Shown piece after piece: positions 53,000 through 56,803 of a DNA stretch of 64,000 nt. Made by a program: the position numbers and the translations under genes. Numbering within the stretch: position 1 is the stretch's first letter; each line of letters opens with the position of its first letter. This stretch comes from Phycisphaerae bacterium RAS1 (GTDB taxonomy: Bacteria > Planctomycetota > Phycisphaerae > UBA1845 > Fen-1342), in contig SMLU01000001.1 of assembly GCA_007859745.1 (NCBI GenBank), positions 372,001-436,000 on the forward strand. The letters run 5' to 3'. The notes beneath the pieces were generated by a model. That model had not been told where the DNA came from, did not search any database, and was given only the letters and a program-made list of their open reading frames with translations.

Positions 53000-55900
53000 C
53001 TACGGGCACAGATCCTGCAATGCGTGCACGTCCCACGTTCGACGTTTCAGCGCTCCGATCGCCGCCACCGCCGCCTTCGCCCCGGTGATCGTCGTCATGA
53101 TCGGCAGCCGATGCAGCGCCGCGGCCGCCCGAATCTTGCCCTCGTCGGTATGCCGCCCGGTGCGCTCGGGCGTGTTGATGAGCATTGCAATCTCGCCGCG
53201 CTTGATCAGGTCGAGCGGGCTGACGCCGCCGTCGCGGATCTTGTTCACGTTCGTGACTTTCAGCCCGGCGCTTTGCAGCGAGCGGGCGGTGCCCGCGGTG
53301 GCGACGATCTCGAAGCCGAGACGAGCGAGGTCGCGGGCGACCGCGGGCAGAAAAGGCTTGTCGCGGTCGGCGACGGAGACGAACACCCGGCCTTCGAGCG
53401 GCAGCCGGATCGAGGCGCCCATTTGCGCCTTGGCGAAGGCCAGCGAAAAGCGCTCGTCGACGCCCATCACCTCGCCCGTGCTGCGCATCTCCGGCCCCAA
53501 CGCGACATCCACGCCAGGGAACTTGTCGAACGGAAAGACCGAATGCTTCACCGCGATATGCCGTCGCGGCGGCGGCTCGCTGACGCTTAGCTCCGCCAGT
53601 GTCTTCCCAAGCATCACCTTCGCCGCGATCTTGGCCCATGGCACGCCGGTAGCCTTGGCGATGAAGGGCACGGTGCGCGACGCCCGCGGGTTCACTTCCA
53701 GCACGTAGATGTCGTCTTCCTTGATCGCGAATTGCACATTCATCAATCCGACCACGCCCAGACGCAGCGCGAGTCGGCGGGCGGCGTACATGATCTGCTG
53801 CACAATCGCGGCCGAGAGCGAGTAAGGCGGCAGCGTCATGGCCGAGTCGCCCGAGTGAATGCCCGCTTCCTCGATGTGCTCCAGCACGCCGCAGATGATC
53901 ACGTCGCGCCCGTCGCAGACGGCGTCGCAATCGACCTCGATGGCGTCGGAGAGGAAACGGTCAATCAGGATCGGATGCTCGCCGCCGGCCTCGACGGCGT
54001 GCGTCATGTAGTGCCGCAGGTCGCCCTCGTTATTGCAGATCTCCATCGCCCGGCCGCCTAGCACGTACGACGGCCGCACCAGCACGGGATATCCGATTCG
54101 GTCGGCGACCGCCTTGGCGTCTTCAAACGACCGTGCGATGCCGCTGGGCGGCTGTTGAATGCCGAGCTCGTCGAGAATGCGCGAGAACTGTTCGCGGTCC
54201 TCGGCGAGGTGAATGGCCGTCGGACTGGTGCCGAGAATCGGAACGCCGGCCTGCTCCAGCCCTCGCGCGAGATTGAGCGGCGTCTGCCCGCCGAATTGGC
54301 AGATGACGCCGACGAGTGCAGAGTAGCGAGTAGCGAGTAGCGAGTCGTCGGATTGGGTGGCATTCAACTCGCTACTCGCTACTCTTGACTCGCTACTGTC
54401 CGCCAATGTCTCGCACACGCTGAGCACGTCCTCATGCGTTAGCGGCTCGAAGAAGAGCATGTCGCTCGTGTCGTAGTCGGTGCTGACCGTCTCCGGGTTC
54501 GAGTTGATCATCACCGCGTCATACCCCAGCTCGCGGGCGGCCATCGCCGCATGGACGCAGCAGTAGTCGAACTCGATGCCCTGCCCGATGCGGTTCGGCC
54601 CGCCGCCGAGGACGACAACCTTCGGTTTGCCGGAGTCACGAACTTCGTCGGCGAAATTTCGAATGTCGAATGGCGAATGTCGAATGCTCGCGGCCGGCGC
54701 GTCAATCGATATTCGCCATTCGACATTCGCAATTCGTGCGGGTGGTCGCTCATACGTTGAGTAGTAATACGGCGTCGCGGCCGCGAATTCGGCGGCGCAC
54801 GTGTCCACCAGGCGGTAGCTGGGAATGACGCCGAGACGGTTGCGGAGGCCGCGGACTGCGGCGGCGTCGAGGTTCCAGGCGTGCGCGAGCTGGACGTCGC
54901 TGTAGCCCAGCGACTTGGCGCGCCACAGCAGGTCCGCGAGAGGCGCGAGCTTGGCATCCGAAGCCGCACGCACCGCGGGTGCACACCCCGCCGCTTGGCG
55001 CGGCGGGTTCGGAAATGCGCTCACGGCGACTTCGCCCGCAGCCGCGCTCGCGGCGGAGGCGGCGGCGCTCGCGGCGGCCGGCGCGGCAGCGATCAGCTTC
55101 TCCTCGAACTCGGTCAGCTCGCGCAGGTTTTCGAGGAACCAGCGATCGATGTGCGACAGGTTGTAGACCCAGTCGACCGACCAGCCGAGCTTCAGCGCGT
55201 AGCGCGCGTAGTAAAGGCGGCCCTGGGCGGGGCGCGCGAGCTTGTCCTCGATCAGCGACGTCGGAATCGGCCAGCGCTCGGCCTTGCTCTCCTGTGTGTC
55301 GGCGGGGGCTTCACCGATACGGCTGCCGGCGATTTGCGAAGCGTCAGTGCTGGCGGGAGAGGGTGCGTCTGCAGAGAGGACCACTCCCTCACGGTCGCGG
55401 CTCGGATGGAGCACTCCCTCACGGTCGCGGGTCGGGTGGACCGCTCCCACACGGTCGCGGCTCGGATCAGGCGACGCGCCGGCGGCCAATGCAATCGCTC
55501 CCTGACGGTCGCGGCTCTGAATGTTTCGCAGGGCTTCAAGCCAGCGGTCGTTCTTGTCGAGGCCGAAGCCGAAGCGTTTCAGCTCCATCGAGCGGATGCA
55601 CTTCTGCAGCGCCTCTTTGAACGTCCGTCCGATCGCCATCGCCTCGCCGACGCTTTTCATCTGCGTCGTCAGCATCTCGTCAGCCTCGGGGAATTTTTCA
55701 AAGGTCCAGCGCGGAATCTTGACGACGCAATAGTCGATCGCCGGCTCAAAGCACGCCGGCGTGGTCTTCGTGATGTCATTGGGCAGTTCGTCCAGCGTGT
55801 AGCCGATCGCGAGCTTGGTGGCAATGCGGGCGATGGGAAAGCCGGTGGCCTTGCTGGCCAGGGCCGACGAGCGCGAGACGCGCGGATTCATCTCGATCAC

Positions 55901-56803
55901 GCACATCCGCCCGGTTTGCGGATGCACGCCGAACTGAATGTTCGAGCCGCCGGTGTCGACGCCGATCTCGCGGATGATGGCGATCGACGCATCGCGCATC
56001 CGCTGATACTCGCGGTCGCTCAGCGTCTGGGCCGGGGCGACGGTGATGCTGTCGCCGGTGTGCACGCCCATCGGGTCGAAATTCTCGATGGAACAGACGA
56101 TTACGACGTTGTCGTTACGGTCGCGGACGACCTCCAGCTCAAATTCCTTCCAGCCCCAGAGCGATTCCTCGATCAGCACCTGGCTGACCGGCGAATACGC
56201 CAGCCCGCGCTTGCAAACCTCCTCAAATTCCTCCATCGTCCGCGCGAAGCCGCCGCCGCTGCCGCCCAGCGTGAACGCCGGCCGGATCGCGCACGGCAAA
56301 TTCACATCCGCGATGACCCGCTGCGCCTCCTCCCAGCTTCGCGCCACGCCGCTGCGCGGCACATCCAGCCCGATCTTCTGCATCGCCGCCCGAAACGCGA
56401 GCCGGTCCTCGGCCTTGTGAATCGCCTCGGGCGTCGCGGCCAGCATCCGCACGCCGTATTGCTGCAGAATTCCAGCTTGGTGGCACGCCATGGCGCAGTT
56501 CAGGCCGGTCTGTCCGCCGATGGTGGGCAGGATTGAGTCGATCGGCGTGCCGCGACTTTTTTCTTTCGCGAGGATTTTCTCGACGACTTCGGGCGTGATC
56601 GGTTCGATATACGTCCGGTCGGCGAATTCCGGATCGGTCATGATCGTCGCCGGGTTGGAATTCACCAGGACGACGCGGATTCCCTCTTCGCGCAGCGCCT
56701 TGCAGGCTTGCGTGCCCGAGTAGTCAAACTCGCACGCCTGACCGATGACGATCGGACCGGAACCGATGATGAGAACGCACTGAATGTCGGGGCGACGCGG
56801 CAT
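53000..56803 (-). CDS. carB: Carbamoyl-phosphate synthase large chain with four in-frame repeat insertions
   Basis: A 1267-residue CarB; normal length is about 1070. It makes carbamoyl phosphate for arginine and pyrimidines with CarA. All hallmarks are present: [117 protein letters not shown] and the MGS-like end ([20 protein letters not shown]). Extra blocks are: residues ~429-474 (SRDREG-type), ~570-607 (Ala-rich plus NPPRQAAG), ~692-717 ([20 protein letters not shown]) and ~802-831 ([17 protein letters not shown]). Each coincides with a palindromic repeat seen between genes elsewhere in the window. All are in frame. Confidence 0.93.
54311..54399. repeat. Family J repeat inside carB
   Basis: GAGTGCAGAGTAGCGAGTAG and the inverted ACTCGCTACTCGCTACTC flank a short centre. 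The first 21 bases are identical to 335-355. Confidence 0.85.
54655..54731. repeat. Family I repeat inside carB
   Basis: TCGAATGTCGAATGGCGAAT and, inverted, ATTCGCCATTCGACATTCGC flank a CTCGCGGCCGGCGCG centre. Confidence 0.8.
54986..55013. repeat. Family A right half inside carB
   Basis: CCCCGCCGCTTGGCGCGGCG plus GGTTCGGA. It encodes the [10 protein letters not shown] block and is preceded by an Ala-repeat stretch. Confidence 0.88.
55384..55519. repeat. Four family C arms inside carB
   Basis: Copies of CTCCCTCACGGTCGCGGCTC at 55384, 55414, 55444 and 55498; the first three are spaced 30 bases, that is ten codons. Each encodes an SRDREG-like block. Confidence 0.9.

Follow-up and report, generated by a model that had tools for sequence, protein, structure and literature searches.

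Introduction

Inteins with homing endonucleases carry a mobile enzyme in frame within essential, conserved proteins, at recurrent sites, and the short tandem heptamer repeats of cyanobacteria are built of 7-nt units. Rickettsia palindromic elements, dispersed repeats of several families, lie in frame within genes and leave the frame open (covered in part by Di Nocera et al. 2013, PMC3733652). That paper reports repetitive extragenic palindromes (REPs) of the GTAG/CGTC type inside open reading frames (ORFs), with two REP dimers in a single uvrA, as well as in tRNA synthetases of several species; the REP-associated tyrosine transposases (RAYTs) are described in the passages concerned as genes near REPs, not inside other ORFs. 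For the class 3 proteins of the TnpA-Y1/RAYT family, of ~178 aa and known from Planctomycetes and Acidobacteria, Quentin et al. 2018 (PMC6006769) describe NHVH and Y----Q motifs and many copies of structures with a CnGA foot; a small number of proteins longer than expected were set aside there, as fusions of genes or errors of annotation. Here we analyse a stretch of 64,000 nucleotides of Phycisphaerae bacterium RAS1 (contig SMLU01000001.1, positions 372,001 to 436,000; hereafter the window), and in it carB (53000-56803, minus strand), which encodes the large subunit of carbamoyl-phosphate synthase (CarB). The gene is an essential one, and four blocks within it contain dispersed repeats of four families, here called C, A, I and J. 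We propose, with a probability of roughly 70%, that mobile repeats of the genome's own REP type have here inserted in frame into four loops that were already free to vary within this order, families A and C being satellites of RAYTs.

Dispersed repeats in four blocks of CarB

CarB of the window has 1267 aa, and its frame is open throughout. When aligned with CarB of E. coli, its surplus falls into four gaps (window residues 417-521, 571-623, 686-725 and 797-831, facing E. coli residues 413-427, 477-486, 549-558 and 630-636), which enclose the blocks marked as insertions in an earlier note on this DNA. Of 26 catalytic or binding positions of E. coli CarB, a list of our own choosing, 25 are identical. 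The genome (our label G000; 5,497,984 bases in 7 contigs, 99% complete) holds a single carB. The five other matches are weak, to ATP-grasp domains or to repeats, and a second, normal copy was therefore rejected.

Block 1 (55378-55521, minus strand, residues ~428-476) consists of four direct REP-type units of family C, each with a CnGA foot, spaced by 30, 30 and 54 nt; no inverted repeat was found in 55378-55521. Block 2 (54985-55012, minus strand, residues ~598-607) is one 28-nt REP unit of family A with a CCGA foot plus hairpin, and the remainder of the loop beside it is Ala-rich. Block 3 (54655-54734, minus strand, residues ~690-717) is an I hairpin with 32-nt arms, and block 4 (54313-54397, minus strand, residues ~803-831) a J hairpin with ~26-nt arms, both built of 7-nt units. 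In single-strand DNA folding against shuffles both hairpins are strong (z -8.0 for I, -6.2 for J), and a single A unit reaches z -2.8. The families are thus of two kinds, A and C being REP-type with a CnGA foot, I and J being heptamer-armed hairpins. The earlier note had described four in-frame insertions of palindromic elements from several unrelated dispersed families, with the frame and the CarB motifs outside the blocks preserved and the J block identical over 21 bases to positions 335-355. Nearly all of this stands: each block carries dispersed repeat DNA, the frame and motifs are intact, no normal copy exists elsewhere in the genome, and the identity of 54311-54331 to 335-355 is exact. 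The word palindromic suits I and J but not, as tested, C, whose units are direct repeats, and in block 2 the repeat DNA is the single A unit and not the Ala-rich rest of the loop.

Searched against the rest of the genome, all four families proved to be dispersed. The A unit has 834 copies at two mismatches or fewer (reversed control, 0). BLAST matches at E<=10 number at least 78 for C, at least 112 for J and at least 89 for I; these are lower bounds, with 40 first-look candidates scored per search, and not copy numbers, because arms and hairpin halves are counted separately. The window contains 7 C, 4 J, 5 I and 20 A units, against 0 of each in all five order-3 shuffles, and chance similarity of the blocks to repeats was rejected on these counts together with the A control.

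The place of the families relative to genes was determined in a 400-kb sample of the genome (20 stretches of 20 kb, 79% called coding by our own simple codon-usage caller, which is rough). Units of C were internal to genes in 0 cases, at gene edges in 5 and outside genes in 21; A units were internal in 11, all within one array in one ORF that has no Pfam hit, and outside in 57; the internal, edge and outside counts were 0, 1 and 0 for J and 0, 1 and 1 for I. The four families are almost wholly intergenic in the sampled genome. The presence of all four within the 3.8 kb of carB thus departs far from how they are usually distributed; caution is needed here, since the families were picked for being in carB.

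RAYTs linked to the A and C families

The Y1_Tnp profile of Pfam finds 20 loci in the genome, 19 of them above the curated cut-off. Around one (L150, contig C4, 138260) lie 12 C units, six before and six after, in mixed orientation. Another (L159, contig C4, 706-945), a free-standing RAYT, is preceded by 12 direct A units and followed by three inverted ones. Both have the NHVH and Y----Q motifs, and the CnGA foot stands on the 5' side of 38 of 42 C units, 95 of 98 A units and all five C and A units in CarB. These features, which are those of the class 3 TnpA-Y1 proteins (PMC6006769), point to A and C as REP-type units tied to class 3-like HUH/Y1 transposases. Two of the four CarB blocks thereby gain a candidate mover.

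Two further observations concern the RAYTs themselves. A RAYT-like gene with a 220-aa frame (L157) lies in the window at 39575-39727, and no unit of the four families occurs closer to it than 1.5 kb; three near-identical RAYT genes (L160-L162) follow one another ~1.58 kb apart at positions 2614693-2618076 of contig C1 of the genome.

Whole RAYTs inside housekeeping enzymes

The RAYT of the C family, L150, is part of a valyl-tRNA synthetase (ValRS; L204 1181-5923, 1581 aa). The frame is free of stops and comprises the catalytic, anticodon and C-terminal domains of ValRS, the RAYT and its repeats occupying the central part. Three more housekeeping enzymes of the genome hold a RAYT in the same way: IleRS (L205 978-5285, 1436 aa), GcvP (L206 1916-5599, 1228 aa) and PurH (L321 3052-5934, 961 aa), the last with a RAYT that the Y1_Tnp profile missed. 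ValRS, IleRS and GcvP are without stops and their segments occur nowhere else in the genome; PurH is likewise stop-free, and its segments are found in the L321 ORF only. A k-mer scan of the 400-kb sample and the window additionally showed in-frame repeats, two inserts each by Pfam, in ArgRS (L358 1997-4189) and in a DnaE-type polymerase (L373 9758-13567), the other genic hits being mostly paralogous domains. The ArgRS inserts are 89-100% identical to the repeats that flank the IleRS-borne RAYT, a parallel to the units of the ValRS-borne RAYT in CarB.

The spacing of same-orientation C units is divisible by three in 3 of 3 cases in CarB and 8 of 8 in ValRS, compared with 12 of 35 elsewhere, which supports but does not prove selection for the frame, because pairs within one array are not independent; two inverted C pairs in ValRS have spacings that are not multiples of three. 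These observations bear on the idea that the inserts are excised from RNA or protein, as introns or inteins are, leaving enzymes of normal size. Such excision would account for their tolerance in essential enzymes. However, frames open through the inserts would be unneeded if removal took place at the RNA level, the array spacings keep the frame, and the listed Pfam families include no intein domain, although no search was made for splicing motifs or self-splicing RNA. We regard excision as very improbable.

In the ValRS-borne RAYT the NHVH and Y----Q marks of class 3 TnpA-Y1 are present, and a Y1 fold is predicted from the model of a relative borne by an alanyl-tRNA synthetase (AlaRS). The AlphaFold model of that relative alone has a predicted local distance difference test score (pLDDT) of 88 and matches TnpA structures of IS200/IS605 as well as that of RAYT 4er8, which is bound to a REP (E 2e-4 to 9e-4, TM ~0.5). 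A model of an AlaRS together with its embedded RAYT, built from 8 sequences, reaches only a mean pLDDT of 62 and a predicted TM score of 0.37.

CarB loops in related planctomycetes

CarB was aligned for 23 relatives, 22 complete (1177-1353 aa, with several lengths taken from one stop to the next) and one partial. Long loops stand at the four sites in every one of them. Loop lengths, in order, are 10, 8, 8 and 5 residues in E. coli, 96, 51, 38 and 33 in the window, and 45-92, 12-55, 21-126 and 9-47 in the relatives. The ~1070 aa of E. coli, against which the earlier note had counted some 200 extra residues, is therefore the wrong yardstick for this lineage: the 1267 aa are real, the surplus is overstated, and we rejected length alone as remarkable. 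The loops are shared and variable in all aligned relatives, and in CarB of the window dispersed repeats are inserted in them. Shorter CarB frames of 1067-1111 aa occur, outside the alignment, in nine genomes of family f4 (G029, G035, G039, G042, G045, G048, G051, G054 and G060), eight of which also hold a long, loop-bearing CarB.

In the 24 CarB genes compared apart from that of E. coli, there are 6 hairpins whose arms reach at least 15 nt in 11,640 nt of loops versus 4 in 76,944 nt elsewhere, and 5 of the 24 genes have such a hairpin in a loop. Joined pieces of the CarB loops of five relatives were searched in six genomes. Those of G039 (120 matches) and G020 (63 matches) belong to families clearly dispersed in their own genomes; none of the families of the five relatives' loops was found in the genome of the window.

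The variability of these loops in all 23 aligned relatives is also what one would expect if they were merely hypervariable and under low constraint, the repeats having arrived from intergenic copies by recombination, gene conversion or slippage, with no transposase involved. The array-like spacing of the C arrays and the fact that I and J have no linked transposase agree with this. On the other side, in other enzymes sites of variable length hold whole in-frame RAYTs flanked by their own units, both A and C have a RAYT linked to them, and a new family would be beyond the reach of slippage. We therefore hold a transposase-free origin to be possible but rather unlikely.

Embedded RAYTs across the class

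A junction query over 61 genomes and a query with the Ile-type RAYT over 298 genomes of the class both yielded numerous embedded copies. The latter gave a match in 150 of the 298; among its best 30 rows, 24 lie in frames of at least 600 aa. Altogether 41 distinct housekeeping ORFs with an embedded RAYT (16 + 13 + 12) were found in related planctomycetes, two of them cut by contig ends or gaps. The first Pfam-scanned set comprises 16 ORFs (ValRS 1, IleRS 7, GcvP 2, AlaRS 5, RarA 1), with host domains on both sides of the RAYT in 14; in L205, L208, L210, L212 and L221 the RAYT fell below Pfam 1e-4 and was identified by alignment. In the second set, 15 of 40 fetched loci were scanned (IleRS 1, ValRS 3, PurH 5, GcvP 1, LeuRS 3, methylases 2); host domains stand on both sides in 13 of 15, the RAYT reaching Pfam 1e-5 in 7 and being recognised by alignment in the rest. 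Among the 61 loci of named records found with the class 3 alignment, AlaRS accounts for 11 (host domains flank the RAYT in 10; 5 are on the same contigs as in the first set) and ValRS for 6.

The embedded RAYTs sit at recurrent sites across species. Of 37 ORFs, 36 could be placed on reference proteins, two of them by one side only; GcvP of the genome studied here was not placed. In AlaRS the sites are ~286-302 (9 ORFs) and 408-419 (2); in ValRS ~468-499 (8, with both RAYT types), ~260 (1) and ~701-724 (1, that of our genome); in IleRS ~500 (5) and ~970 (3); in GcvP ~771-781 (2); and in PurH ~400 (5).

An assembly or binning artefact, or a pseudogene, might produce long frames of this kind, and the named records are indeed mostly metagenome-assembled genomes (MAGs). 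One AlaRS with a RAYT (L216 950-5299, genome G037) is without the C-terminal DHHA1 domain and changes its reading past a terminal repeat array; this frame may be broken or misassembled. Yet the genes of our genome are stop-free, single-copy and essential in an assembly of 7 contigs, and the same arrangement recurs in many separate assemblies. An artefact is hardly credible as an explanation of the whole.

Outside the housekeeping hosts, 9 further long frames without a host hit were scanned, and 8 of them turned out to be methylases, in which the host domain either appears on just one side or lies at a contig end. At L225, L228, L232, L237, L238, L242, L249, L251, L341 and L347 a RAYT shares its frame with methylase domains (DUF1156, type ISP and Eco57I-like), in records named, among others, Pirellulales, Planctomycetales, Thermogutta and Anaerolineales; the nearly identical loci L237 and L238 come from one record named Bacillota and one named Planctomycetota, which probably reflects a binning error. 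The 17 acidobacterial loci among the 61 have frames of 145-239 aa and no host hit, with stops inside the match in 4.

Selection and kinship of embedded RAYTs

Differences between embedded class 3 RAYTs are mostly at third positions, and the ratio of nonsynonymous to synonymous differences (pN/pS) is 0.29-0.46 in 21 of 21 pairs, a value that is only indicative because dS is near saturation. In an alignment of 40 of the 61 loci, free RAYTs and embedded ones alike, H86, H88, K105 and Y146 never vary. A quick tree was built from 51 of the 61 loci (L253, L273, L276-L280 and L282-L284 were left out) and three further rows, 54 in all; of its 51 inner branches, 27 are open. On this tree the host label switches 11 times, between a minimum of 4 and a shuffled mean of 24.8. 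Five ValRS-borne RAYTs form one group (Shimodaira-Hasegawa-like branch support, SH-aLRT, 99), and the ValRS-borne RAYT of our genome is sister to one in an AlaRS (SH-aLRT 96). Such a topology fits inheritance and host switching both. The GcvP-borne RAYTs of two genera differ by pN 0.208 from each other, and one of them by 0.211 from a RarA-borne RAYT (L206, L207 and L221); this near-equality hints at separate insertions at one site.

The purifying selection and the ValRS group suggest long retention, as would be expected if the repeats or RAYT domains had been domesticated to serve the host, for example in regulation, in nucleic-acid binding by the synthetases or in coupling to DNA repair. However, presence is patchy among genera of one family, and both the host switching and the differing sites within one host enzyme fit a mobile element better. 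Domestication thus seems unlikely to us.

Further copies of the four families

In the window outside carB, J units lie at 335-407, not inside any called gene, and I units at 2177-2210. Family C is represented at 1459-1481 (plus strand), 21311 (plus) and 44984 (minus). Units of A form a REPIN-like inverted pair with a 69-nt spacing at 8701-8793 and further inverted pairs at 20398/20487, 32954/33024, 51963/52032, 52794/52863, 56997/57066, 57154/57223, 57311/57380 and 60220/60289, and a single unit stands at 25508. Neighbouring A pairs are inverted in 45 of 54 cases, with spacings of 52-91 and a REPIN-like arrangement; the A unit of CarB is, by contrast, single. An A-unit array with a 138-nt period occupies a 1251-aa frame without a Pfam hit (L359 14404-18156), which is either a real gene or a chance frame.

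Discussion

Several observations weigh against the insertion of RAYT-borne mobile repeats into CarB as we propose it. A single C unit folds no better as DNA than its shuffles (z 0.17). No I or J unit was found within 1.5 kb of any of the 20 Y1_Tnp loci, so that half of the CarB blocks are without a candidate mover, and one known mover common to all four families was rejected for this reason. Pairs of A units also lie near the RAYT loci L151 and L165; these may be there by chance, because A is so common, and the arrays at L159 are the stronger link. Among the relatives, the CarB-loop piece of G045 has 74 matches, of which the dispersed ones are to a related heptamer piece of G019 while its own piece lists itself only; that of G019 has 14, the 4 listed being two places in its own CarB; and that of G008 matched only itself in the six genomes searched, with no dispersed copies. 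(One of these two places, at contig C83, 3517-3605, is another hairpin insert belonging to that family and lies outside the four loops.) No site polymorphic within a species came to light, none of the 60 relatives searched is of the same genus, and mobility is therefore something that we infer. To these points are added the rough gene calls, the near-saturated dS, the MAG origin of most named records and the doubtful AlaRS frame, all noted above.

With this in mind, one may picture the C and A units as non-autonomous satellites of class 3-like single-strand (HUH/Y1) RAYTs. The RAYT would recognise CnGA-footed units and move or copy them as single-stranded DNA. Most insertions would persist only between genes, and a few would land in frame in tolerant loops, presumably at the protein surface, of long essential enzymes, where they may be close to neutral. 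Such units would be translated and retained in the mature protein; they would be lost only through precise in-frame deletion, and arrays within genes would lengthen or shorten in multiples of 3 nt. The C-family RAYT, whole and in frame within ValRS, may represent the extreme of the same lifestyle. The heptamer-armed hairpins I and J would occupy the same set of CarB loops. Extending this picture, and with somewhat less confidence than for CarB itself, we favour the view that stop-less RAYTs are "in-frame transposons": translated domains of ValRS, IleRS, AlaRS, LeuRS, GcvP, PurH and RarA that hop between sites, may be shielded by the essentiality of their hosts, and shed frame-keeping satellites, those of the ValRS-borne RAYT into CarB and those of the IleRS-borne RAYT into ArgRS.

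How does this compare with the described systems? Like inteins, as these are generally understood, the embedded RAYTs are mobile enzymes carried in frame in essential proteins at recurrent sites; unlike them, they have no splicing domain among the Pfam hits, are single-strand transposases instead of endonucleases, and occupy length-variable sites. I and J share 7-nt units with the heptamer repeats of cyanobacteria, as commonly described, and differ from them in forming inverted arms. The earlier note had likened the blocks to Rickettsia palindromic elements. This likeness is partial: several families do lie in frame in an essential gene that remains open, but block 1 has no inverted repeat, C is not palindromic, the organism is another one, and two families here have a linked RAYT. 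The interpretation of that note as a whole is therefore upheld for several unrelated families in one essential, single-copy enzyme and not for blocks that are all palindromic. With the intragenic GTAG/CGTC REPs (PMC3733652) the locus shares REPs within ORFs, and it differs from them in having four families in one gene, CnGA feet, length-variable sites common to relatives, and whole RAYTs in frame. With the class 3 TnpA-Y1/RAYT REPtrons (PMC6006769) it shares the NHVH and Y----Q motifs and multicopy CnGA-footed structures; unlike those proteins as described, at ~178 aa, many RAYTs here are in-frame inserts of housekeeping proteins. REPs within genes are thus already known, and whole in-frame RAYTs in essential enzymes may be new: in the open-access literature searched we found no whole RAYT in frame inside an essential enzyme, which is a weak negative.

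The route by which in-gene REPs arrive, and the way in which they persist, have been open questions, and for two of the four families in CarB there is now a linked transposase. Our findings suggest that jumping DNA resides within indispensable proteins. If true, this would add a further hideout for mobile elements in indispensable genes, beside inteins and introns, and it makes the origin of new loops in conserved enzymes testable. It is also a warning that unusually long synthetases of planctomycetes may be real, and not annotation errors.

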